Below, piece by piece: positions 18,666 to 30,967 of a stretch of 47,083 bases of DNA; position 1 is the stretch's first letter, and every line of letters begins with the position of its first letter. The translations under genes were made by a program, and so were the position numbers. Source of the DNA: an uncultured Hyphomicrobiales bacterium (GTDB taxonomy: Bacteria > Pseudomonadota > Alphaproteobacteria > Rhizobiales > Xanthobacteraceae); the NCBI GenBank assembly GCA_903892675.1, contig CAITJJ010000106.1, positions 1-47,083 on the forward strand, in the 5' to 3' direction. The notes beneath the pieces were generated by a model. The model was not told where the DNA came from. It worked only from the letters and a program-made list of their open reading frames with translations, and ran no database searches.

Positions 18666-20131
18666 GCAATCTGTTCCCTTCGCCCGGCAGAGCGTTGAGC
18701 GGTGATCGCCTGCATCGTATGTTCGGCGTTGCGGACTTGCGGCTTTGGCATTTGCTGGATTTTGTGCACCGACTGGCCCCAGCCTTTGGTGTCCATCAGC
18801 TTGCGGTCCTTCATAACGAAGCGGCCGCGCACAATCGTGTGGATCGGCAGCCCTTTCACCTTGCGGCCGTCCCAGGGCGATATCTTCGATCGCGACTGAA
18901 TGTCGGCGTCGCGGATCGTGTGCTCGCGGCCGAGATCGACAATGGCGATGTCCGCGTCGGAGCCCGGCAGCAACGCGCCCTTGCGCGGATAGAGGCCCCA
19001 GATGCGCGCCGGATTGTACGCACTCATGCGCACATAGGCGGAAATCGACATGCGGCCGGCGTTCACCTCGGTCAGCATCAAGGGCATTTGGGTTTCGACA
19101 CCGGGAAATCCGCAATCGACGGTCCAGATATCGTTGCGGGTTTTTTCCTCCGGCGCATGCGGCGCGTGATCGGTGGCGATGACGTCGATGGCGCCATCGA
19201 TCAGCGCCCGCCAGATCGGCTCCTGGTTACGGCTCTCTCGCACCGGCGGATTGACGGCAATAACGCCGGGCACGCGCGTGTAGTCGTCGGTCGACAGCAT
19301 TAAGTAGTGCGGACAGGTTTCGCCGGTGATATCGACGCCACGCGCCTTGGCCTCGCGCAGCGGCCGTAACTCGTCAGCGCTCGAAATGTGCAACACATGA
19401 ATGCGGGCACCGGTCCATTCGGCAAGAATGGCGGCGCGGCTGACCGCTTCGATCGCGACCACCGGCGGCCGCGCCGCCAGATGCGCGAACTGATCGTGAA
19501 TGCCGGCGGCCATCAGCCGCTTCTGCCGCCGCTCCATGATGTCGTTGTTCTCGGCGTGCAGCGAGACGCGCTTGCCGCTTGCCGCCGCCACCTCGAAGAG
19601 CTCCAACGTCGCTCCGGTGTCGGGCGACGCGATCTTGCCGAATGTGTTGCCCATATAAAGCTTGAAACCAATGATGCCGCCATCGAGCAGTTCTGGCACC
19701 GTCGCGAGGTTTTCATCGCCGAGAAGGCCGTAAAGGCCGAAGTCTATATGCGCCTTCGACGCGGCAATGGCATGCTTGGCGGCGAGGATGTCGCCATCGG
19801 CGGTCGGTGGAATGGTGTTCGGCATGTCAAACACGCAGGTCACGCCACCGAAGGCCGCTGCCGCGGTGCCGCTTTCCCAGTCCTCCTTGTGCGGATAACC
19901 CGGATCGCGGAAATGAACGTGGTCGTCGATGGCGCCGGGCAAGATGTGCATGCCGGCTGCGTCGAACACTTCTTTCGCCGGCGGCATAGCGCTGTCGGCG
20001 CCGATGGCGAGGATCCGGCCATCCTTGATAGCAATGCTGGCCTCGATTACTGCATCCGGCGACACCACTTTGCCGTTGCGGATCACAAGGTCGGCGGTCA
20101 TGGCTGTCATCGCGTTCATCGTGTCACTCAC
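18662..20131 (-). CDS. Dihydroorotase-like cyclic amidohydrolase (allantoinase/hydantoinase group)
   Basis: A 489-residue amidohydrolase-superfamily TIM barrel. Metal ligands are visible as His71 and His73 (DDHVHFRDPG), a carboxylated lysine Lys157 (GFKLYMGNTFG), His192 (LHAEN), His248 (VLHIS) and Asp321 (ATDHAPH). The N-terminal block VHFRDPGYPHKEDWESGT and FDMPNT are typical of allantoinases and class I dihydroorotases. The enzymes open or close cyclic ureides such as dihydroorotate, allantoin and dihydropyrimidine. It begins at a GTG overlapping the SDR stop (GTGA); an ATG at 20119 is an alternative. Its place in a transport/ring-opening operon argues for catabolism over UMP synthesis. Exact substrate unknown. 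About 40 C-terminal residues are extra and polar. Confidence 0.83.
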   Translation of the reverse strand: MSDTMNAMTAMTADLVIRNGKVVSPDAVIEASIAIKDGRILAIGADSAMPPAKEVFDAAGMHILPGAIDDHVHFRDPGYPHKEDWESGTAAAAFGGVTCVFDMPNTIPPTADGDILAAKHAIAASKAHIDFGLYGLLGDENLATVPELLDGGIIGFKLYMGNTFGKIASPDTGATLELFEVAAASGKRVSLHAENNDIMERRQKRLMAAGIHDQFAHLAARPPVVAIEAVSRAAILAEWTGARIHVLHISSADELRPLREAKARGVDITGETCPHYLMLSTDDYTRVPGVIAVNPPVRESRNQEPIWRALIDGAIDVIATDHAPHAPEEKTRNDIWTVDCGFPGVETQMPLMLTEVNAGRMSISAYVRMSAYNPARIWGLYPRKGALLPGSDADIAIVDLGREHTIRDADIQSRSKISPWDGRKVKGLPIHTIVRGRFVMKDRKLMDTKGWGQSVHKIQQMPKPQVRNAEHTMQAITAQRSAGRREQIA

Positions 20132-20922
20132 AGCATCGCCCAGCCGCCATCGACCGGCAAATCGATGCCGGTGAGCTGACGAGAAACATCGCTCGCAAGA
20201 AACAAGCAGGCATTGGCGACGTCGGCATCCTCCGTGACGCGCTTGAGCGCGTAGTCGGCGGCATGGCGCTCCATCGCTTCTTCAAGCGTGATGCCGAGGC
20301 GCTTGGCCATGTCGGCGCAGACTTTGTCGCGGAAACGTGGCCCGTCGACCATGCCGGGCGCCACGTTGTTGACGTTGATGTTGTACTGGCCGACTTCGAG
20401 GGCAAAACTCTTGGTAATGCCGCGCAGGCCCCATTTCGACGCCGAATAGGCCATGCGGCCGGCGCGCCCGCGCATGCCGAACGTGCCGCCGACATTGACC
20501 ACCTTGCCGTAGCGTTGCGCGATCATGGTCGGCAGAACGCTGCGCATCGTATGAAAACAGCCATTCATGTTGAGCGTGACGATCTCGTCGAATTCCTCCG
20601 GCGTCGTCTCGACGCCGGTTTTGCCGACCGGACCGGAACCACCGGCGACATTGACCAGAATGTCGATGCGGTCGCCGAAGGCTTCCCTGGTTCTGGCGGC
20701 GGCAACATCGCATTGCGCCGGATCGGTCAGATCGCACGGCACGATGATCACCTGCGCGCCCATCTTCGCAACTTCAGCGGCGACCGGCTCGATCGCTGCG
20801 ACATCGCGGCCGAGCAGCGCCAATTTCGCTCCTTCCGCGGCGAAAGCCGTGGTGATCGCCGCCCCCATCCCCTTGGCCGGGCCGGTGATCATCGCGACTT
20901 TGCCTTGGAGCTTCAGTTCCAT
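20128..20922 (-). CDS. SDR-family oxidoreductase
   Basis: A classical short-chain dehydrogenase/reductase of 264 residues. The cofactor motif is TGPAKGMG (residues 13-20), the NxAG element is NVAGG, and the catalytic pair Tyr159/Lys163 sits in AYSASK. The usual catalytic serine position is occupied by Gly146 (NVGGT), with Thr147 adjacent as possible substitute. The end GIDLPVDGGWAML is family-typical. It is directly downstream of the binding-protein gene and translationally coupled to the cyclic amidohydrolase, so it may oxidise or reduce an intermediate of the heterocycle pathway. Substrate cannot be predicted. Confidence 0.85.
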   Translation of the reverse strand: MELKLQGKVAMITGPAKGMGAAITTAFAAEGAKLALLGRDVAAIEPVAAEVAKMGAQVIIVPCDLTDPAQCDVAAARTREAFGDRIDILVNVAGGSGPVGKTGVETTPEEFDEIVTLNMNGCFHTMRSVLPTMIAQRYGKVVNVGGTFGMRGRAGRMAYSASKWGLRGITKSFALEVGQYNINVNNVAPGMVDGPRFRDKVCADMAKRLGITLEEAMERHAADYALKRVTEDADVANACLFLASDVSRQLTGIDLPVDGGWAML

Positions 20923-20952
20923 CGCCGCACCTTGGGAAAAATCGGGAAGGCA

Positions 20953-20980
20953 GCCGCTCCTCTCGCAAAAGAGGAGCGGC
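20953..20980 (-). terminator. Strong hairpin between binding-protein and SDR genes
   Basis: Perfect 11-bp arms (GCCGCTCCTCT / AGAGGAGCGGC) with a 6-nt loop, followed on the minus strand about 10 nt later by a T5 run. Located 18 bp after the binding-protein stop. It likely ends most transcripts or protects their 3' end, allowing more binding protein than downstream ATPase and permease. Confidence 0.6.
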
Positions 20981-20997
20981 CGAGTTTGCGGGTCGTC

Positions 20998-22038
20998 CTA
21001 GAACAGCTTGTGCGGCAGTTCCGTTGCCGGCGGCAGGAACGAGCCATCCCAGACTTCGCTGATCGCCGGCGAGCGCGGCAGGGAAAGCGCATCGACCATG
21101 ATGTCGATCGACTTCTTCAAGCGAACTTCGTCGATGCTGCCGAGACCGATCTTCTTGATCTCGGGATGGTTCATCTCGTCGGCGAAGGTCGCGTCAAAAC
21201 GCTCGCGCTCGAGTTTGCCGTTGATCAGCGGCTCGCGCTTGGCGACCGCGGCGACCGAGGCTTCCGGGTCCTTGATCGAGTCCTGCATGCCTTTGTTGAG
21301 CGCGCGCAGGAAGCCCTTCACCAGTTCCGGCTTTTCCTTGGCCATCTTTTTCGGAACGATGATGGCGTTGGAATAGAGATCCATGCCGTAATCGCCGTAC
21401 TTGATGTAGCGGATCTTGTCCTCGTCGATCTTGGCGAGCTTGGCCGAGAAGCGGATGGTGTTCACGTAGCCGAACACGCCATCGACCTGGCCCTGCATCA
21501 GCATGTTTTCGCGCAGGTTCGGCTGCATGTTGCTGAGCTTTACCGTCGTGCAATCGATCTTGGCGATCTTGCAGAACGCCGGGAATAGCTTGAGCGCGCC
21601 GTCATTGGCCGGGCCGCCGATCGATTTGCCTTCGAGGTCCTTGGCGGTCTTGATCGGGCTATCGGCCTTCACCGCGATTGTGAACGGCGGCTGGTTGTAC
21701 ATGACGTAGACGGCAATCGGCGCGTCTTCCGGTTTCTTCGCCGCCATTTCGATCAACGCATTCATGTCGCCGAAGCCGACGTCATAGGTGCCGTTGCCGA
21801 CCAGCGCGGGCACGCCGCCGGAGCCGTTGCCCTGGTCGAGTTGCACCTCGATACCTTCGGCTTTGAAATAACCGCGGTCGTCGGCGAGGAAGAACATCCC
21901 CTGCGGACCCTGATATTTCCAGTTCAACACGACTTTGAGCTTGGTTTGGGCGGCCGCGGGCGTAGCCGAGGCGAGCGAACCGGCAATGCCGATCGCAGCC
22001 GCGGCGGCAATCAGCAAGGAACGGGAAGAAATAGTCAT
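20998..22038 (-). CDS. NMT1/THI5-like ABC substrate-binding protein
   Basis: A periplasmic binding protein of 346 residues. ATG 22038 has an SD (CAGGAG), and the product begins with a Sec signal (MTISSRSLLIAAAAAIGIAG, cleavage near ATPAAAQ). The mature start TKLKVVLNWKYQGPQGMFFLADDRGYFKAEGIEV is the NMT1/THI5 signature of proteins binding pyrimidine precursors, riboflavin-like or sulfonate ligands. A longer in-frame upstream stretch is rejected because it would bury the signal peptide. It leads the minus-strand operon and is divergent from the LysR regulator. The strong hairpin after it suggests elevated expression relative to the transporter subunits. A pyrimidine or cyclic ureide ligand is inferred from context. 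Confidence 0.92.
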   Translation of the reverse strand: MTISSRSLLIAAAAAIGIAGSLASATPAAAQTKLKVVLNWKYQGPQGMFFLADDRGYFKAEGIEVQLDQGNGSGGVPALVGNGTYDVGFGDMNALIEMAAKKPEDAPIAVYVMYNQPPFTIAVKADSPIKTAKDLEGKSIGGPANDGALKLFPAFCKIAKIDCTTVKLSNMQPNLRENMLMQGQVDGVFGYVNTIRFSAKLAKIDEDKIRYIKYGDYGMDLYSNAIIVPKKMAKEKPELVKGFLRALNKGMQDSIKDPEASVAAVAKREPLINGKLERERFDATFADEMNHPEIKKIGLGSIDEVRLKKSIDIMVDALSLPRSPAISEVWDGSFLPPATELPHKLF

Positions 22039-22171
22039 TGGCGTACTCCTGTTGAGCATCTGAAGCTTTTGCGCGCACGTCCGGCCCGGCCTGCCGGCTG
22101 CCCGCGGTGTGTGTCGGCGTCGCCGAAGGGTTTTCGTCTCGGCGCGACCATGAATTGGTCCATGCAAGTGT

Positions 22172-22200
22172 GGTGCCGGAAAATCCTAGCCCGGGGCACC
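22172..22200. promoter_or_regulatory. Inverted repeat GGTGCC...GGCACC, candidate LysR site 1
   Basis: Six-bp perfect arms separated by 17 bp in the divergent region. The left half lies in GTGTGGTGCCGGAAAA, nearly the same as the half-site at 22229 (GAGTGGTGCCGAAAA), 61 bp away. Repeated GTGGTGCC sites between a LysR gene and its likely target operon suggest regulator binding. Confidence 0.45.
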
Positions 22201-22228
22201 GTTGCCATCTGCCGCTGATTTTTTGCTA

Positions 22229-22253
22229 GAGTGGTGCCGAAAAGGCATCACTC
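22229..22253. promoter_or_regulatory. 25-bp inverted repeat before the LysR gene, candidate operator
   Basis: GAGTGGTGCC-GAAAA-GGCATCACTC: ten-bp arms with one mismatch around a 5-bp centre, 20 bp before the LysR ATG. No T-run follows, so it is unlikely to be a terminator. Autoregulation by the adjacent LysR protein is a reasonable reading. Confidence 0.55.
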
Positions 22254-22272
22254 TCTTTCCCATGGCGAGCCG

Positions 22273-23175
22273 ATGAAACACCTGCGCATCCTGGATTACG
22301 TTGACGCCGTCGCCCGCGCCCGCTCGATCCGCAAGGCGGCCGAACAGCTCAACGTCACGGCATCGGCGGTCAATCGCCGCATCGCCGACCTCGAAGAAGA
22401 GCTGGGCGCGCTGCTGTTCGAGCGCCTGCCGCGCGGCGTGCGGCTAACCGCCGCCGGCGAAGTCTTCGTCAATTACCTGCGCAAGCAAGGCGGCGAAGCC
22501 GAGCGGATGAAATCGCAGATCGAAGACCTCAAGGGCCTGCGCCGCGGCACGGTCCGGCTCGCCTGCAGCCAGGCAATGGCGCTCGATTTTCTGCCGCGCG
22601 CCATCGCCGAATTCCGCAAGACGCATCCAAAAGTCGAATTCGACGTCAAGGTGGTCGACCACGAATATGCGATGGCGGCGCTGTCGGCTTTCGAAGTCGA
22701 TCTGGTAATGGTGTTTCGCCCGCCATTCATGGCTAATTTTCAACCGTTAATGACGCTCGAACAACGGCTGGTCGCGGTGATGGCGAAGAACCATCCGCTC
22801 GCCAAACTGCGCAAACTTCGACTGCGCGATTGCGCCGCGCATCCGGTCGCGCTGCCCGAACGTTCGATCGGCGGCCGCCAACTTCTCGACCAGGTCGCGG
22901 CCCGCACCGGCCTGACTTTCAATATCGCCGCCGAATCCAACTCCTTTGAAATGCTGCGTGGCCTGGCTATCCATGCCGGACTGCTGTCGTTTCAGATCAA
23001 GATCGGCACCCTGCTGGACGGCAACAGGCTGGGACTGGTGGCGCGCGAGATCGACGACCGCGACGTACCAAGCGCCAAGCTCGTGTTCGGCCAGTTGCGC
23101 GAACGCAATCTGCCGGTGGCGACCGCTGTGTTTGCCGAACACATCACGCGCCGCCTGCGAGCGATGCTTGGCTAA
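22273..23175 (+). CDS. LysR-family transcriptional regulator
   Basis: A 300-residue LysR protein. The N-terminal winged helix reads RSIRKAAEQLNVTASAVNRRIADLEEELGALLFERLPRGVRLTAAG, followed by a linker helix and an inducer-binding domain (GTVRLACSQAMALDFLPRAIAEFRKTHPKVEFDV). ATG 22273 places the helix-turn-helix at the normal distance; an upstream GTG at 22231 falls inside the inverted repeat and was rejected. It is divergent from the binding-protein/amidohydrolase operon and precedes the URC genes, so it may control both. The inducer is probably a pyrimidine or breakdown product; this is inference. Confidence 0.93.
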   Translation: MKHLRILDYVDAVARARSIRKAAEQLNVTASAVNRRIADLEEELGALLFERLPRGVRLTAAGEVFVNYLRKQGGEAERMKSQIEDLKGLRRGTVRLACSQAMALDFLPRAIAEFRKTHPKVEFDVKVVDHEYAMAALSAFEVDLVMVFRPPFMANFQPLMTLEQRLVAVMAKNHPLAKLRKLRLRDCAAHPVALPERSIGGRQLLDQVAARTGLTFNIAAESNSFEMLRGLAIHAGLLSFQIKIGTLLDGNRLGLVAREIDDRDVPSAKLVFGQLRERNLPVATAVFAEHITRRLRAMLG

Positions 23176-23221
23176 ACATCATGCATTTGGCTGCGATGCC
23201 AATTCCGCCATCCTCATGGTC

Positions 23222-23249
23222 TTGCGCTTGTGAAATTAGGGGTTATACT
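23222..23249 (+). promoter_or_regulatory. Candidate sigma70-type promoter for the URC leader
   Basis: TTGCGC (23222-23227), 16-bp spacer, TATACT (23244-23249). A start site about 7 nt downstream would put the transcript 5' end just before the structured region at 23260. The -10 is good and the -35 only partial. Confidence 0.4.
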
Positions 23250-23259
23250 TTTCTTTTAA

Positions 23260-23371
23260 GGGACGGCCTCATCCAGCCCATTGCGGGCCGGGTTAACGAA
23301 CGCCGGCCTTTAAAACCGAGTAAGCGCTGAAACGTACTGGCCCGTCCTCCTTGGCGGGCCATATCCTTTTT
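23260..23371 (+). promoter_or_regulatory. Structured 5' leader of the URC operon, candidate riboswitch or attenuator
   Basis: A closing stem can form between GGACGG (23261-23266) and CCGTCC (23342-23347), extendable by two more pairs around a bulge. It encloses a hairpin GGCCGG-GTT-AACG-AAC-(G)-CCGGCC (23286-23308) and a weaker one, AGTA...TACT (23319-23338). The 3' strand of the closing stem is also the 5' arm of a second hairpin TGGCCCG / CGGGCCA (23338-23361) followed by T5 at 23367-23371. The two folds exclude each other, the usual logic of an attenuator or riboswitch. I cannot match it to a known class. Confidence 0.5.
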
Positions 23372-23401
23372 GCTTCGGCTTATGCTTATGGTTTTAAAAC
23401 A

Positions 23402-24658
<1,257 letters not shown>

Positions 24659-24683
24659 GCGAACCTGTGAGCGGACCTTCCTC

Positions 24684-25919
24684 ATGAATCCCGAGACGGC
24701 CGCGGCCTTTTCACTTCTCAGCGCCGAGGCCGTCCGCACGCGTGCGCACCATATGCTCGCGCTCGGATTGGACGGCAAACTGCCGAACTTCCGCGTCGAT
24801 CTTTCGCAATTGGACTCCACCGCCGAACGCGTGATTGCCGTCACACGGCAAAACTATCCGTCACTCGAAATTCCCTTTCATTCCCGTTGGCGGCATTTCG
24901 TTGTTGGCGGCGTCGATCGTTTTGACGGGATTGCCAAGGCGGCCGCGTTCAAGGACGCCGCCGCCCGCGCGCGCGCCGAATTCGATCTTGCCATTGTCAG
25001 CGTTTTCCTCGATGCCGGCGCTGGCCCGCAATGGCGCTATGCCGACCGCGAAAGCGGCCAGAGCATCGGCCGTTCCGAAGGCTTGGCGCTGGCCAGCCTC
25101 GACATGTTCATGCGCGGCGCGTTCTCGGCCGATCCATCCCGCCCGTTGCGGGTCGATGCCGCGGTGCTGGCGCATCTCAGCGCGGACCAGTTGGCGCAAG
25201 GGTTTCAGGTAAACGCGGACAATCCGCTGGTCGGTCTCGAAGGCCGCGCCGCCTTGTTGCGCCGCCTCGGCGCGTTGATTGCCGAAAGTCCCGGTGTCTT
25301 CGCCCAGAACGACAGCGCGCGGCCCGGCGGCCTTTTCGATCATCTCGCCGCGTTGGACGACGGCAACACGATCGCCGCGCCGGACATCCTGTCCGAATTG
25401 CTGCACGAACTCGGGCCGATCTGGCCGTCGCGCATCTCACTAGGAGGCATCCCACTCGGCGATTGCTGGCGACACCCGGCGATGAAGACCACCGATGCCA
25501 CCAATGGCATTGTGCCTATCCACAAGCTGTCGCAGTGGCTGGCCTATTCGTTGATCGAGCCGCTGCAGCGCGGCGGCATCGCTGTCACCGATATCGATGG
25601 CCTCACGGGTCTCGCCGAATACCGTAATGGCGGTTTGTTTATCGACAGTGGCGTCCTCGCCTTGCGCGACCCATCGCAATTGACGCGCGCACATGAGGCC
25701 GGCTCCGAACTCGTCGTCGAATGGCGCACGCTGACCGTCGCCCTGCTCGACCGCCTCGCCGCCACCATTCGCGAACGATTGAACATGGACGCCGTCGCTC
25801 TGCCATTGGCAAAAATTCTCGAAGGCGGCACCTGGGCGGCCGGTCGCGCCATCGCCCGCGAAAAGCGCGCCGACGGCGCGCCGCCGATCAATGTCACCAG
25901 CGACGGCACGGTCTTTTAG
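24684..25919 (+). CDS. DUF1688 family protein, URC4-like
   Basis: A 411-residue protein matching the DUF1688/URC4 family, whose members occur with URC1 and uracil phosphoribosyltransferase in fungi and bacteria and are required for uracil catabolism, though the reaction is unproven to my knowledge. Typical segments are [15 protein letters not shown], the [19 protein letters not shown] stretch, [13 protein letters not shown] and the [24 protein letters not shown] block near residue 270. It starts 25 bp after the URC1-like gene at ATG 24684; the longer frame upstream is shadow. It ends 16 bp before the phosphoribosyltransferase gene, so the three form one operon. No signal peptide or membrane helix. 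Confidence 0.85.
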
Positions 25920-25935
25920 GTATCAGGAGAGATTT

Positions 25936-26565
25936 ATGGAAGGCGTTACCGTCGTCGGCCACCCATTGGTCCAGCACAAGCTGACCTTGATCCGCGACAA
26001 GAACCTGTCGACCAAATCGTTTCGCGAATTGTTGAGCGAAATCGGCATGCTGCTCTGCTACGAGGTGACGCGCGATCTGCCGCTGGAAATGGTGGACATC
26101 GAGACGCCGCTGGCGCGCATGAAATCCCCGGTCCTTGCTGGCAAGAAGCTGGTCTTCGCGCCAATCCTGCGCGCCGGGCTGACTTTCGCCGAAGGCATGC
26201 TCGACCTCGTGCCGGCGGCGCGCATCGCGCATATCGGCCTTTACCGCGAACCGGAAACCTTTGCCGCGGTCGAATACTTTTTCAAAGCACCGTCCGACAT
26301 CGCCGAGCGGCTGGTCATCGTCATCGTGCCGGTACTTGCCACCGCCAACACGGCGGTTGCCGCTGTCGACCGCCTGAAAGAACACGGCGCGAGGGAAATC
26401 CGCGTCGTATGCCTGGTTGGCGCGCCGGAGGGGATCGAACGCCTGCGCGGCATTCACCCGGATGTGCACATCTGGACGGCCGCCATCGACAGTGGATTGA
26501 ACGAGCAGGCATTTATTGTCCCCGGCCTTGGCGATGCCGGAGACCGCGCCTATGGGACGAAATAG
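25936..26565 (+). CDS. upp: Uracil phosphoribosyltransferase-like protein (URC6-like) with altered PRPP loop
   Basis: A 209-residue homologue of Upp, which converts uracil and PRPP to UMP. The start is at ATG 25936 with SD AGGAGA. The N-terminus ([27 protein letters not shown]), [19 protein letters not shown] and the C-terminal uracil-binding motif [14 protein letters not shown] are well kept. However, the PRPP-binding loop, canonically VDPMLATGGS, reads [10 protein letters not shown] (residues 130-139): the Asp is a Val and GG is AN. Activity as a normal UPRT is therefore uncertain. In the URC pathway this enzyme makes the nucleotide substrate. It is the last gene of the URC operon. Confidence 0.88.
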
Positions 26566-26595
26566 TTCTTGAAATCGTCCTTGCGCTGACGCCGC

Positions 26596-27576
26596 CTATT
26601 TCCGCAAGCCCGCCGCGGTCAGCGCCGTGACCCATTTTTCGATGTCGGCATGGATGAAGTCGGCGAATTCCTTCGGCGTACTGCCGAGGGGATCGGTGCC
26701 CTGGCTCTTCAACGCCGTTTGCACTTGCTCGGATTTGAGACCCTCATTCGCTGCGTCTGCGAGTTTTTGAATGATGGCCGGCGGCGTCTTGGCCGGCGCC
26801 AGAAGGCCAATCCAGATGCCTGCGTCATAACCTGTCGTACCGGCTTCCGTTAGTGTCGGCACGGTCGGCATGATGGTCGCGCGTTTCGACTGCGCCACCG
26901 CCAGGGCCTTGAGGCTGCCGGCCTGAACGTGCGGCGCCAAAGTCGCGGCGACATTGAACATAAGGGTAATGCGGCCCGCCAGCAGATCGGTGACGGCCTG
27001 ATTGCTGCCGCCTTGATAAGGCGCGATGACGATCTTTGTCCCCAATTTCTGATTGAACAGTTCGGCCGCCATGTGACTTGCCGTACCCGCGCCGGAGGAC
27101 CCGAAAGTCAGGCTTTCCGGCTTGCTTTTGGCCAGGGCAATCAATTCCTGCAAATTATTTGCCGGGACCGACGGATGCGCCACCAGCACGTTAGGAACGA
27201 CGGCGAGCAAGGAGATCGGCGCGAGTTCTGTGCCGAGATTGAATGGCGAGTTTGTCTGCGCCGGGTTGAGCGTATTGGCTACCGTCGCCATGAATAGCGT
27301 GTAGCCATCGGCGGGAGCGCGCGCGACGAACTCCGCGCCGATCATACTGCTGTTGCCCGGCCGGTTTTCCACGACGACCGGCTGGCCGAGTTTGGATTCC
27401 ATGTGCTTGCCGATAAGGCGGGCAAGAATATCGGCGGCCGATCCAGGTCCGAACCCAATGATGATTTTGATCGGCTGCGCCGGATAGATTTGCGCCGCGA
27501 CCGGCGCTGCGCCGGCTAAGACATTAATCGCAACGGCTATGCAAGCCCCGACAATCGTCGAATATCGGCTATTCAT
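26596..27576 (-). CDS. Bug/TctC-family periplasmic binding protein
   Basis: A 326-residue substrate-binding protein of the tripartite tricarboxylate transporter family, with an N-terminal signal (CIAVAINVLAGAAPVAAQ) followed by YPAQPIKIIIGFGPGSAADILARLIGKHM and VVENRPGNSSMIGAEFVARAPADGYTL, both hallmarks of Bug proteins. These bind small carboxylates or aromatic acids in the periplasm. No TctA/TctB membrane partners are nearby, which is common for these widely expanded proteins. GGGGGAACG precedes the ATG. It converges on the URC operon with a 30-bp gap and diverges from the carboxymuconolactone-decarboxylase-like gene. The ligand is unknown. Confidence 0.92.
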   Translation of the reverse strand: MNSRYSTIVGACIAVAINVLAGAAPVAAQIYPAQPIKIIIGFGPGSAADILARLIGKHMESKLGQPVVVENRPGNSSMIGAEFVARAPADGYTLFMATVANTLNPAQTNSPFNLGTELAPISLLAVVPNVLVAHPSVPANNLQELIALAKSKPESLTFGSSGAGTASHMAAELFNQKLGTKIVIAPYQGGSNQAVTDLLAGRITLMFNVAATLAPHVQAGSLKALAVAQSKRATIMPTVPTLTEAGTTGYDAGIWIGLLAPAKTPPAIIQKLADAANEGLKSEQVQTALKSQGTDPLGSTPKEFADFIHADIEKWVTALTAAGLRK

Positions 27577-27709
27577 CGTTCCCCCAACTGATTCACGTCG
27601 CGGTTTTCCCGCATATCGCTTTGTTGACGCTTGCCGACCCCGGCCCTACAGCTTGACCGCTTTCTTGCCGTCCAATTCTTAACGCAGCCGACGACGAAAG
27701 GAAACCAGC

Positions 27710-28096
27710 ATGCATTCCGATCCCGAACGCCGGGCGCGCGGCGCGCAAAAACTCGGCGAAATCCTGGGCCAGGCCCCGGAACAAGTCGAGCGGTCATTGG
27801 GCGATATTGCACCGCAATTGGCGGCCTATGTGATCGAGACGATCTATGGCGAGATCTATCAAAGCCCTGTGCTCGATTCACGCACGCGGCAGATTGTCAC
27901 TGTCGCGGCACTGGCGACGCTCGGCACCGCCGCACCGCAACTGCGAACCCATATTGGCGGCGCGCTTCGCTGCGGCGTCACGAAAGAAGAGCTTGTCGAA
28001 ATCATGATGCAGCTCGTCCCCTATGTCGGCGTTGCCGCGGCGATCAATGGCGTCGCCGCCTGCCGCGAGGTTTTCGCCGCCGCCGACAAAAAATAG
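27710..28096 (+). CDS. Carboxymuconolactone decarboxylase-family protein
   Basis: A small alpha-helical protein (128 residues) of the CMD/AhpD superfamily: VYQSP-like segment IYQSPVLDSRTRQIVTVAALATLGTAAPQLRTHIGGALRCGVTKEEL and IMMQLVPYVG fit PcaC relatives. PcaC decarboxylates 4-carboxymuconolactone in protocatechuate degradation; many relatives are uncharacterised. The AhpD CxxC redox motif is absent, so peroxidase activity is not expected. SD AAAGGAAA precedes the ATG. An alpha/beta hydrolase follows 108 bp later, a pairing reminiscent of PcaC/PcaD, but the hydrolase is not obviously PcaD. Confidence 0.85.
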   Translation: MHSDPERRARGAQKLGEILGQAPEQVERSLGDIAPQLAAYVIETIYGEIYQSPVLDSRTRQIVTVAALATLGTAAPQLRTHIGGALRCGVTKEELVEIMMQLVPYVGVAAAINGVAACREVFAAADKK

Positions 28097-28204
28097 GCGG
28101 CGCGATCGCGGATTCCTTTCGTCGCCTCCACGGCATGGGATATGGCGCCCGAACGACCGCTCGGCTAGCATTTGGTTCTGGACAAGACGCTTTGGGGGGC
28201 GAAC

Positions 28205-28966
28205 ATGATTTGGCACAAGGCAGTCGGCAACGGCCCAGTCAAGGTCGTGGTCGTTCACGGCTGGATCTGGGACCACAGGGTATTCACCCCGATCCTCGAT
28301 GCGCTCGACACCGACAAGCACACTTATGCCTTTGTCGACATCCGCGGTTACGGCAATTCGCGCGATGTCGCCGGGTCATACTCCATCGGCGAAGTCGCAT
28401 CGGATGTAATCGCCTTGGCCGACCAGTTGGGCTGGCGCGATTTTCATGTCGTAGGCCACTCGATGGGCGGCAAGGCCGCGCAGAAAGCAGCGATCGATGC
28501 CGCCGGGCGGGTCCGATCCATTGTCGCGGTGACGCCGGTGCCGGCCATCGCCCTGCCCTTCGACGACGCGACATTCGGTTTCTTCACGTCCGCTTGCGAC
28601 AGTGATGAAGCGGCGCTGGCAATCATGGGCGATTCAGTCGGCAACCGGACGTCCAAAGCCTGGCTGAAATTGATGCTGCGCCGCGCCCGCGAAACCGCCC
28701 GCGCCGAGGCTTTCAAAAGCTATATGCGTTCGTTCATCAAGGACGACCTGTCGGCCGACGCCGCCAAGGTCAAGGCGCCAATGCTTGTGCTGTACGGCGA
28801 ATTCGACAACGGCGTCAGCGAGGCCATGGTGAAGGCTGTGTTTCCGGGCCTGTTTCCGCACGCCGAGATAGAAAGAGTCGACAGGTCCGGCCATTATCCA
28901 ATGCTGGAAGTGCCAGTCGCGTTTGCCACGCGAATGGAATCGTTCATCGATCAACACGCCGGCTGA
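28205..28966 (+). CDS. Alpha/beta hydrolase
   Basis: A 253-residue alpha/beta-hydrolase-fold enzyme: oxyanion-hole HGWIWD near residues 18-23, nucleophile Ser86 in GHSMGG, the probable acid in YGEFDNGVS and His230 in SGHYPMLE. This is the esterase/meta-cleavage-product hydrolase type. ATG 28205 follows a G-rich SD (GGGGGGC). It could act on an enol-lactone or ring-cleavage product given the nearby CMD-like gene and the second dioxygenase, but esterase activity is equally possible. The lid region (residues 110-165) carries several Arg/Lys, suggesting a negatively charged substrate; that is only a hint. Confidence 0.87.
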
Positions 28967-29010
28967 TTGAGTCGCCGGAAGATCCCGCGGCAACACCTTG
29001 ACCCAACAAT

Positions 29011-29790
29011 TCAAATCAGCGCGGGATACGACCCTCCATCGAGATGCATATTTTGCCCGGACATGAAACCGGCAAAGGCGCTGCATAAAAACGCGCAGGT
29101 GGCGCCGAATTCCTTCGGATCGCCGAGGCGTTTGGCGGCGATGCTTTCCACCTGACGCGCGCGCGCTTCTTCATAGGAGATATTGTCGCGTGCCATCGCC
29201 GCCTTCGCCATCTGAACCTGGCGATCGGTATCGAAGCGCTCCGGCAGCATATTGTTGATCGTGACATTGTAGCGGGCGACGTCGAGCGCCAGCGCTTTCA
29301 TCGCCCCGGTCAATCCGGCGCGCGCGCCGGCCGACGGCGCCATATGCGGGCGCGGCGTCGTCACCATCGCCGAGGTGATGTTGACGATGCGGCCGAACTT
29401 GCGCTCCTTCATGCCGGCCAGCACGCCGCGCGTCAGCATGATCGGCGCCACCATGTTGGCCTCGATCACGCGCATCCAGGTATCGTGATCGATGTCGGCG
29501 AAGTTGCCCGGCTTCGGTCCGCCATTGTTGTTGACGAGAATGTCGCAGGTGGGCGCCGCGGCGATGAGACGGTCGCGGCCCTCAGGCGTGGCGATATCGG
29601 CGGCAACCGCAGTGACGGTGGCTTTCGTGCCGGCGCGCAAGGCCGCCGCGGTCTTTTCCAGTTTGGCCGCGTCACGCCCGTTGATAATGACGTTGACGCC
29701 TTCCCGCGCCAGCGCCTCCGCGCAGGCAAGGCCCAGTCCCTGGCTCGAGCCACATATAATGGCGGTGCGGCCTTCGATGCCCAGATTCAT
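29011..29790 (-). CDS. SDR-family protein lacking the YxxxK catalytic pair
   Basis: A 259-residue Rossmann-fold SDR starting at ATG 29790 (SD GGGGGAAA). Cofactor-binding CGSSQGLG (13-20) and the NNNGG element are intact, as is Ser140 (NITSAM). The catalytic Tyr is replaced by Ser153 and the Lys by Arg157 (APSAGARAGLTG). This pattern occurs in a recognised subset of bacterial SDRs annotated as 3-oxoacyl-ACP-reductase-like, whose chemistry is unclear. It is divergent from the TRAP transporter operon and shares its control region with two copies of a 12-bp palindrome. It may bind NAD(P)(H) without classical dehydrogenase activity. Confidence 0.8.
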   Translation of the reverse strand: MNLGIEGRTAIICGSSQGLGLACAEALAREGVNVIINGRDAAKLEKTAAALRAGTKATVTAVAADIATPEGRDRLIAAAPTCDILVNNNGGPKPGNFADIDHDTWMRVIEANMVAPIMLTRGVLAGMKERKFGRIVNITSAMVTTPRPHMAPSAGARAGLTGAMKALALDVARYNVTINNMLPERFDTDRQVQMAKAAMARDNISYEEARARQVESIAAKRLGDPKEFGATCAFLCSAFAGFMSGQNMHLDGGSYPALI

Positions 29791-29837
29791 CGGTGGTTTC
29801 CCCCTGCTCGCGCGTTGCCGTTCCGGCATGCGGTACA

Positions 29838-29849
29838 ATAGTCGATTAT
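29838..29849. promoter_or_regulatory. Operator-like palindrome, site 1 (ATAGTCGATTAT)
   Basis: This differs by one base from the perfect palindrome ATAATCGATTAT at 29867-29878. The sites are 29 bp apart, close to three helical turns, in the region between the SDR and the TRAP operon. A regulator in that operon (GntR, 33807) is the obvious candidate binder. Confidence 0.5.
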
Positions 29850-29866
29850 ATACAAATTTCGTCTTG

Positions 29867-29878
29867 ATAATCGATTAT
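29867..29878. promoter_or_regulatory. Operator-like palindrome, site 2 (ATAATCGATTAT)
   Basis: A perfect 12-bp palindrome, second of the pair with 29838-29849, located 82 bp upstream of the dctP-like ATG. The stretch between the sites is AT-rich, unlike the surrounding DNA, as expected of a promoter core. Confidence 0.55.
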
Positions 29879-29959
29879 TTCTGTATCACCGTCCAGCCAA
29901 TGCCGCCGGCCGCTTAGCCGTGAGACGGCACGCCCACAGGGATGCAAGGGAGGTTTTCA

Positions 29960-30967
29960 ATGAACAAGATTTTCGCAGCCGCGCTGCTGACGCTCGCGGC
30001 CTTTGCGCCGGCGACAGCCAGCGCCCAGCCCGTCACGCTCAAGCTCGCCTTCTTCGCGTCTGACACCGAGGTCAACTACGCCAAAGCGATCAAGCTCTGG
30101 GCCGACGCGGTCAATGCCGACCCGGCCGGCGCGGTGAAGATCGACGTCTTCCCGAACGGTGCGCTAGGCAAGGCGCTGCCGGCCCAGCCGCAAATGGTGC
30201 TCGACGGCATCGCCGACATCGCCTTCGTCAATCCGGCTTTGGTGCCCGGACGATTCCCCGACGACCAGGTCTTCGAAGTCCCCGGCCTCGTCGGCAATAT
30301 CAAGGAAGGCGTCGCGCTTTATCAGGCGCTGCTGAAGGCGAACTTGCTGCGCGGCTATTCCGATTATTACGTCATCGGCTCTTTCATGAACGCCAACGCG
30401 CATGTGTTCTCGCGCAAAGCCATCAAGTCGGTCAACGACCTCAAGGGCATGAAGGTGCGCATCAGCGGCGCCGTCATCGGCCAGACGGTGAAAGAACTCG
30501 GCGTCGTGCCGGTGCTGATGCCGCCAAACGAAGTCGTCGAAGCCATGGGCCGCGGCACCATCGACGCCACGACGACAGTCCCCGCCGCGGTCGTCGACTT
30601 CGGCATCGACCGAGTCACGCAGCACGACTACCTGATCCAGCTCGGCACCAATCCTTTCGCCGTGCTGATGAACCGCAAGAAGTTCGAGTCGATGCCGAAG
30701 GCGGCGCAGGATCAGATCGCCAAGTATTCGCCCGGCTGGATCAACGATACCTATATCAAGAACCTCAGCGCCTATAACGAAGAGGTGATCGGCCAATTCC
30801 GCGCCGACAAGAAGCGCACGGTGGTGACTCCCGCCGACGCCGATTTGCCGGCGATCAAGGCGGCGTCCGAAAAGGTCACCGCCGACTGGGCCGCCAAGAG
30901 CCCGGAAAACGCCCAGCTTCTGGCCAAGGCCCGCGCCTTGCTCGCCGAGATCCGGGCGAAGAAGTGA
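29960..30967 (+). CDS. dctP: TRAP transporter substrate-binding protein, DctP family
   Basis: A 335-residue periplasmic binding protein. ATG 29960 follows a strong SD (AAGGGAGG) and starts a Sec signal (MNKIFAAALLTLAAFAPATASA). The mature protein starts VTLKLAFFASDTEVNYAKAIKLWADAVN, and the internal FSRKAIKSVNDLKGMKVRISG and Arg of the ligand-carboxylate clamp region match DctP. TRAP binding proteins deliver organic acids, often aromatic or keto acids, to the DctQM membrane pair. The gene overlaps dctQ by 4 nt (GTGA). Downstream ring-cleavage genes make an aromatic acid the likely ligand. Confidence 0.92.
   Translation: MNKIFAAALLTLAAFAPATASAQPVTLKLAFFASDTEVNYAKAIKLWADAVNADPAGAVKIDVFPNGALGKALPAQPQMVLDGIADIAFVNPALVPGRFPDDQVFEVPGLVGNIKEGVALYQALLKANLLRGYSDYYVIGSFMNANAHVFSRKAIKSVNDLKGMKVRISGAVIGQTVKELGVVPVLMPPNEVVEAMGRGTIDATTTVPAAVVDFGIDRVTQHDYLIQLGTNPFAVLMNRKKFESMPKAAQDQIAKYSPGWINDTYIKNLSAYNEEVIGQFRADKKRTVVTPADADLPAIKAASEKVTADWAAKSPENAQLLAKARALLAEIRAKK

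Follow-up and report, generated by a model that had tools for sequence, protein, structure and literature searches.

A conserved terminator-like hairpin upstream of URC1 suggests transcription attenuation of a pyrimidine-degradation operon

Background

The question raised by this locus is whether an operon of the bacterial URC pathway of pyrimidine degradation is controlled in the leader that precedes its first gene. Control of this pathway seems little described: our searches of the literature on bacterial URC genes found no paper on attenuation, a result that is bounded by those searches and does not prove absence. The first-pass annotation of the window (the whole stretch of 47,083 nucleotides) had proposed mutually exclusive hairpins ahead of URC1 and read them as a candidate uncharacterised riboswitch or attenuator. 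According to that proposal a stem between GGACGG (23261-23266) and CCGTCC (23342-23347) encloses two further hairpins, one of them a 9-bp helix with an AACG tetraloop, and the same CCGTCC bases are needed for a second hairpin followed by T5 (23367-23371). All of these motifs are indeed found in the window, including the AACG hairpin (23286-23308), which carries one bulged G.

Materials and methods

In total 108 URC1 loci were collected, 28 from a genome search (the window's own included) and 80 from named genomes; the latter are the best 80 of 368 and hence mostly near relatives. L029 and L030 were excluded because they are weak matches and not URC1. Merging of identical upstream regions left 93 distinct leaders. 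The close set holds 17 leaders, ten of the window's type (type A) and seven of type B. One genome bin (G012) contains two URC1 copies with divergent leaders (G012:C125 and G012:C116; L004 and L036) and may be a mixed bin.

The terminator hairpin was located with a loosened pattern (GGCCCGTC, a loop of 5 to 20 nt, GGCGGGCC, six or seven nt, TTT) and with a pattern-free scan of the 120 nt before URC1, which required a stem of at least 7 pairs with at least 5 G-C pairs, a loop of 3-10 nt and TTT at most 8 nt further on. Other ORF starts of the same loci, chosen heuristically, served as a control. Two models were searched against 60 genomes: R1 describes the 5' domain, and R2 is a covariance model of the terminator hairpin that rests on 70 distinct copies. 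It omits four loci in reverse orientation; three of these have a forward duplicate and one (L019) has none. For the antiterminator and alternative-fold tests, leader starts were guessed from a loose -10 pattern; for the 13 of 77 leaders without a match 70 nt were taken instead, and in L006 the guessed box fell within the leader, which was consequently folded in shortened form. The alternative-fold test allowed the 5' arm of the terminator to pair with upstream partners only.

Results

The operon and its presumed promoter

The first gene of the operon is what we take to be URC1, a name carried over from the first-pass annotation, and the DUF1688 gene behind it is presumably URC4 (Table 1). The order URC1, URC4, UPRT is maintained in relatives with enough flanking sequence, apart from loci where UPRT lies elsewhere (L107), further away (L077) or not within reach (L024 and L026), and one without a URC4 match (L100).

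The promoter was read from the sequence. In an alignment of the 17 close leaders it is retained with small changes, and a loose -10-like pattern lies upstream of the hairpin in 64 of 77 hairpin-bearing leaders; a strict consensus promoter scan of positions 20000-30000 listed none. The transcript would probably start near 23256-23258, so that the first Ts of the P1 5' strand (TTTT) may be outside the RNA. By eye, T runs of 3 to 6 are seen just past the -10-like boxes of several distant URC1 genes (L204, L208, L213, L216, L217 and L218), and the window has a T run as well (23250-23257) in its presumed initial transcribed region. T-rich initial transcribed regions are reminiscent of the nucleotide-sensitive starts of pyrimidine genes. 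At the other end of the leader a five-codon frame, ATGGTTTTAAAACAATGA (23388-23405), has a stop that overlaps the URC1 start codon; by eye, it is absent from L002 and L006.

Table 1. Features of the URC1 locus, in coordinates of the window
Feature	Position	Strand	Remarks
LysR-type regulator gene	22273-23175	+	upstream neighbour of URC1, same strand
Presumed promoter	23222-23249	+	-35-like TTGCGC 23222-23227, 16-nt spacer, -10 TATACT 23244-23249
P1, 5' strand	23254-23267	+	TTTTAAGGG (P1a, 23254-23262) and CGGC (P1b, 23264-23267)
P2 hairpin	23273-23291	+	23273-23279 with 23285-23291
P1, 3' strand	23302-23315	+	P1b 23302-23305 and CCTTTAAAA (P1a, 23307-23315)
AAAACCGAGTAA after P1	23312-23323	+	partly complementary to translation start region
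Leader intrinsic terminator (putative)	23338-23371	+	TGGCCCGTC-CTCCTT-GGCGGGCCA (hairpin, 23338-23361), 5-nt spacer, TTTTT (23367-23371)
GGTTTTAAAA	23390-23399	+	just 5' of URC1 start codon; possible partner of CTTTAAAACC
URC1	23402-24658	+	GTP_CH_N and GTP_cyclohydro2 (Pfam PF12471, PF00925); first operon gene
URC4-type gene, DUF1688	24678-25919	+	PF07958; start approximate
Uracil phosphoribosyltransferase (UPRT)	25933-26565	+	PF14681; start approximate

A terminator-like hairpin is conserved ahead of URC1

That the hairpin at 23338-23361 and its T5 form an intrinsic-terminator-like element inside the URC1 leader is well supported by comparison of relatives. Within positions 20000-30000 it is the first-listed and longest of 12 terminator-like sites (9 pairs, 7 of them G-C), and 11.3 sites of any quality are expected there by chance. 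With the loosened pattern the hairpin is kept in 77 of the 93 distinct leaders (a sample that includes the best 80 of 368), 19 to 92 nt upstream of URC1. TTT is found at a fixed position in all 77 and is often followed by GG; the T run is usually short (3 to 5) and starts 5-7 nt past the core stem. The loop measures 5, 6, 8 or 20 nt, and the 20-nt loop of L006 is itself able to lengthen the stem. The pattern-free scan, which missed L006, gives a similar outcome: a hairpin with TTT is found on the sense strand of 76 of 93 leaders, but on the antisense strand in only 11 of the 93, and at 6 of the 344 other ORF starts. When TTTT is demanded these counts are 56, 1 and 2.

Read as RNA, all 560 cells of the core stem (70 copies) are free of mismatches, with variable pairs of the kinds G-C/G-U/A-U, C-G/U-G and U-G/C-G/U-A. 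This complete pairing is partly built in, because rows were selected with a pattern that tolerates some changes only; shuffles average 99.7% paired, and two-sided change is limited to one cell. In the window's genome the exact stem pattern has a single match. A search of 36 genomes with it gave 21 matches, of which 10 lie in URC1 leaders and 11 at other places, and the pattern read backwards gave 18; hence it is not a dispersed repeat. In the R2 search of 60 genomes the top 21 matches are URC1 leaders, and only thereafter is one last URC1 leader mixed with other sites. Five of these lower-scoring sites outside URC1 were inspected; L193 and L195 lie directly behind rpoZ and L194 directly behind ftsZ, before lpxC, with a similar spacing to the T run (the other two are L196 and L197). 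The neighbours were named from Pfam matches (PF01192, PF12327, PF03331), and that of L195 by its likeness to L193. Judging from their sequence, these three sites, which belong to sister genomes, share the terminator-like form of the leader hairpin. A linker of the form GA-N-CGTC was seen by eye about 12 nt before the hairpin in L010, L011, L047, L055, L056 and L060.

The hairpin is absent from 16 of the 93 leaders: seven belong to more distant URC1 genes (L022-L028), and the other nine are mostly from Bradyrhizobium (L080, L081, L085, L088, L091, L093, L097, L098 and L107). All nine show a -10-like CATACT and have URC4 behind URC1; eight also have UPRT and thus carry the window's three-gene operon, the ninth being L107. 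Among 23 more distant URC1 genes from 289 searched genomes, a hairpin with TTT was found in two and one with TTTT in none, so the leader hairpin is not class-wide. By eye, another kind of hairpin, with TTTTT behind it, stands shortly downstream of a TATATT-like box in the last 90 nt before URC1 in L023 and L025 (URC1 of about 70% identity); it is absent from the results of the pattern-free scan and possibly represents an independent leader terminator.

The 5' domain is detected only in close relatives

Upstream of the terminator the 17 close leaders share P1a, of which 99.3% of cells are paired (L036 is imperfectly aligned); one UA pair is exchanged for CG, and another occurs as G-U, G-C and A-U. 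An unguided RNAalifold consensus contains the terminator and P1a, the latter with two pairs adjoining it, and also a short outer stem. P2 is paired in 98.3% of cells in the ten type-A leaders, with one two-sided change, and the seven type-B leaders have, by eye, a register-shifted hairpin in its place. The loops of the domain differ between the two types, and AAAACCGAGTAA is found in 16 of 17 leaders, L036 having GAAACCGAGTAA. Over the 17 rows P1a and P2 reach a covariation score of 0.121, which none of 500 shuffles attained; related sequences can beat shuffles on such a score without any structure. A shift of the 3' partners by one column raises the score slightly, to 0.128, but lowers the fraction of paired cells from 85.7% to 66.5%. 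Covariation over the whole structure in the ten type-A leaders is not clearly above shuffles (85 of 500).

With R1, the 5' domain is detected in 16 URC1 leaders of the 60 genomes, all from the window's genus. Further matches under strict filters are weak, the next best having an E-value of 0.007 and the others 0.1 or more; the match at 0.007, in G012, lies where a coding ORF ends, between ORFs that converge, and was rejected as chance. At E-values up to 1 nothing was found in the 76 other URC1 loci, 60 of which have the terminator. Eleven leaders of a japonicum-type group contain an unrelated 5' hairpin with two-sided changes at four of its twelve pairs, and a consensus fold of six xanthobacterial-type 5' regions (L076 left out) gave no convincing hairpin. 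Three leaders of other groups (L073, L084 and L102) open, by eye, with a TTTAG-type stem (in L102, TTTAGTGGG with CCCACTAAA) that is P1-like in place, different in sequence and missed by R1. Overall the leaders fold somewhat more stably than their shuffled versions (mean z -1.0 over 77 leaders with guessed starts).

Competing pairings

What became of the proposed stem enclosing two hairpins? As a single sequence, the region 23240-23405 folds modestly better than its shuffles (z -2.0, with 9 of 200 shuffles as good). The check for compensatory changes that the first-pass annotation had suggested separates its elements: the terminator is conserved, whereas neither the enclosing stem nor the 23286-23308 hairpin shows a two-sided change. 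For the GGACGG/CCGTCC stem this holds in the ten as well as in the 17 leaders. The innermost pair is lost in nine of these 17 relatives and the outermost in three (part of L036 is gapped), four inner positions hardly vary, and GGACGG is absent from L006 and L036. In the AACG hairpin of the ten closest relatives 87.8% of cells are paired, which does not exceed the level of shuffles. The enclosing arrangement is thus not the conserved fold.

Competition of two structures for CCGTCC is thermodynamically possible in the window and in some close relatives. Since GGACGG overlaps P1, that stem and P1 are mutually exclusive. An RNA of intermediate length (23256-23347) folds with GGACGGCC paired to GGCCCGTCC, which is the enclosing stem plus two pairs, and the longer RNA (23256-23372) folds as P1 and the terminator. 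For nine of the ten type-A leaders the alternative fold lies 0 to 7.5 kcal/mol above the terminator fold (L006 on its shortened leader); in L004, a close relative, the terminator-free fold is 12.2 kcal/mol worse. Costs are 5.9 to 11.4 kcal/mol in type B, and the median over 77 leaders is 11.3. Complementarity between leader and terminator arm is not above that of shuffled leaders (mean z -0.08 over all 77; z -0.3 to -1.3 in type A). On this evidence we treat a switch between P1 and an antiterminator in the window's own group as possible and unproven.

Discussion

Attenuation is the simplest reading of a conserved leader terminator. Since many relatives keep a terminator-like hairpin in the leader, the operon is probably throttled there, and we assign a probability of about 0.68 to a transcription attenuator in the leader of URC1-URC4-UPRT. 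Of the two options in the first-pass annotation, the attenuator has thus gained from the terminator-like hairpin found between promoter-like sequence and URC1 in most leaders. RNA polymerase starting from the presumed promoter at 23222-23249 would first make the 5' stem-loop domain and then meet the hairpin and its T5; part of the transcripts would end near 23371 as leader RNAs some 115 nt long, and operon expression would be set by those that read through. Termination may be regulated, for which a protein, nucleotide supply or a small ligand are candidate triggers. In the window's lineage, opening of P1 might conceivably free GGGACGG to pair with CCGTCC and so suppress the terminator, in which case P1 would be an anti-antiterminator.

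The hairpin might instead be a passive damper, or a terminator that works more or less efficiently according to nucleotide supply or an RNA-binding protein, with a 5' stem-loop that only guards the 5' end. A family-wide antiterminator is lacking, the japonicum-type hairpin keeps its structure while its sequence changes, and an ATG or GTG leader ORF of at least 4 codons is found in 30 of 77 leaders and not in the window, all of which suits such a damper. It leaves the conserved AAAACCGAGTAA of the window's lineage unexplained, however, and the six xanthobacterial-type sequences yield no consensus hairpin; we consider it rather unlikely, yet worth keeping in mind. Another reading is control at the level of translation, where CTTTAAAACC...GTAAGC and the start region of URC1 would form a duplex that competes with P1. 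CTTTAAAACCGAGTAAGC (23308-23325) is complementary to GCTTATGGTTTTAAA in the start region, the duplex is part of the minimum-energy fold of the read-through RNA, and in the regions searched (32-81 nt) it beats the mean of its shuffles in each of the 17 close leaders and ends at most 3 nt from the ATG in 16 of them. Taken singly these duplexes are weak, however (1 to 84 of 300 shuffles are as good), and by eye the GTAAGC half is incompletely complemented in L006, L007, L037 and type B. Both strands barely vary within a subtype, and so the pairing shows no covariation. Its effect would oppose the logic of P1 and antiterminator, and at most one of the two is likely to matter. Translation control is, in our estimate, an unlikely account of the leader. 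A metabolite riboswitch, the other option of the first-pass annotation, would have P1 and P2 bind uracil, UMP or a pathway intermediate and thereby choose between P1 and the antiterminator stem. Conservation of P1, P2 and AAAACCGAGTAA in the close leaders, the low cost of the alternative folds in most of type A and the occurrence of the 5' domain before URC1 only (60 genomes) might be cited in its favour. Nonetheless, an aptamer with helices that covary across lineages was not found: P1a covaries within one genus-level group, beyond which the domain is undetected, including in the 76 other URC1 loci. Its loops differ between subtypes, the switching stem does not covary, Rfam has no match, and the japonicum-type lineage retains the terminator behind an unrelated hairpin. 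On these comparisons the riboswitch reading is unsupported and we hold it to be improbable. The same low standing applies to the fuller version, in which the leader would sense a pyrimidine or URC intermediate directly, with P1 as anti-antiterminator and a translational layer via AAAACCGAGTAA; to our knowledge no natural uracil riboswitch has been described.

Three further readings were rejected. The first assigns the hairpin to the end of the LysR gene upstream and places the start of URC1 transcription behind it. In its favour, the LysR gene of the window is on the same strand and ends at 23175, and the nearest upstream ORF (chosen heuristically) is co-directional in 40 of the 72 scored hairpin loci. 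In the other 32 it is divergent, so there the hairpin is not that gene's terminator. Promoter-like sequence is also retained upstream of the hairpin in the 17 close leaders, and in many relatives the gap between hairpin and ATG is 19-26 nt, so that a downstream -10 box would sit in the GC stem; this leaves the reading very improbable. A palindromic DNA operator for a repressor would account for the strong sequence conservation of both arms, yet the distance between them ranges from 5 to 20 nt, as is easier to reconcile with an RNA hairpin, and in 58 of 70 copies one position has T against G, a wobble pair in RNA and an imperfect palindrome in DNA. We give it hardly any weight. Finally, a leader peptide finds no conserved ORF: with ATG and GTG starts, no short ORF before the terminator is family-wide in the 77 leaders. 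A GTG frame beginning VT(R/G)PV is present in nine leaders and not in the window, and it recurs because it runs into the conserved stem.

The hairpin in genomes named Pseudolabrys, Bradyrhizobium, Tardiphaga and relatives, set against the nine mostly Bradyrhizobium leaders without it, offers a ready comparative system for how the operon is switched.

Comparison with known systems

The first-pass annotation could not place the RNA in a class, and at the gathering threshold Rfam has no match to the window. This includes the NMT1 motif/xanthine riboswitch and THF-II (folE motif), which occur in nucleobase or cyclohydrolase-type gene neighbourhoods. A permissive search of 301 bases (23150-23450) gave a single match, to the ROSE_2 heat-shock thermometer (RF01832, 23326-23388); at 19.2 bits (E 0.11) the similarity is weak and far under the gathering score of 65, and URC1 is not a heat-shock gene. 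With terminating riboswitches the URC leader shares a structured 5' domain followed by a terminator, but here the domain was not found outside one genus-level group. ANTAR targets consist of two hairpins whose hexaloops carry A1 and G4; judged by eye against this consensus, the URC leader lacks such a pair, with terminator loops such as CTCCTT, CGAGC and TGTCCA. Unlike leader-peptide attenuators, the window's leader has no leader peptide (ATG and GTG starts only), and in comparison with PyrR-controlled leaders, the UPRT of the URC operon is known here only as a UPRTase match (PF14681). The URC leader resembles those of operons that are attenuated at an intrinsic terminator, such as pyrBI, trp and those with PyrR- and ANTAR-controlled leaders: here too a terminator-like hairpin stands between promoter and first gene, with a possible competing pairing in the 5' region.
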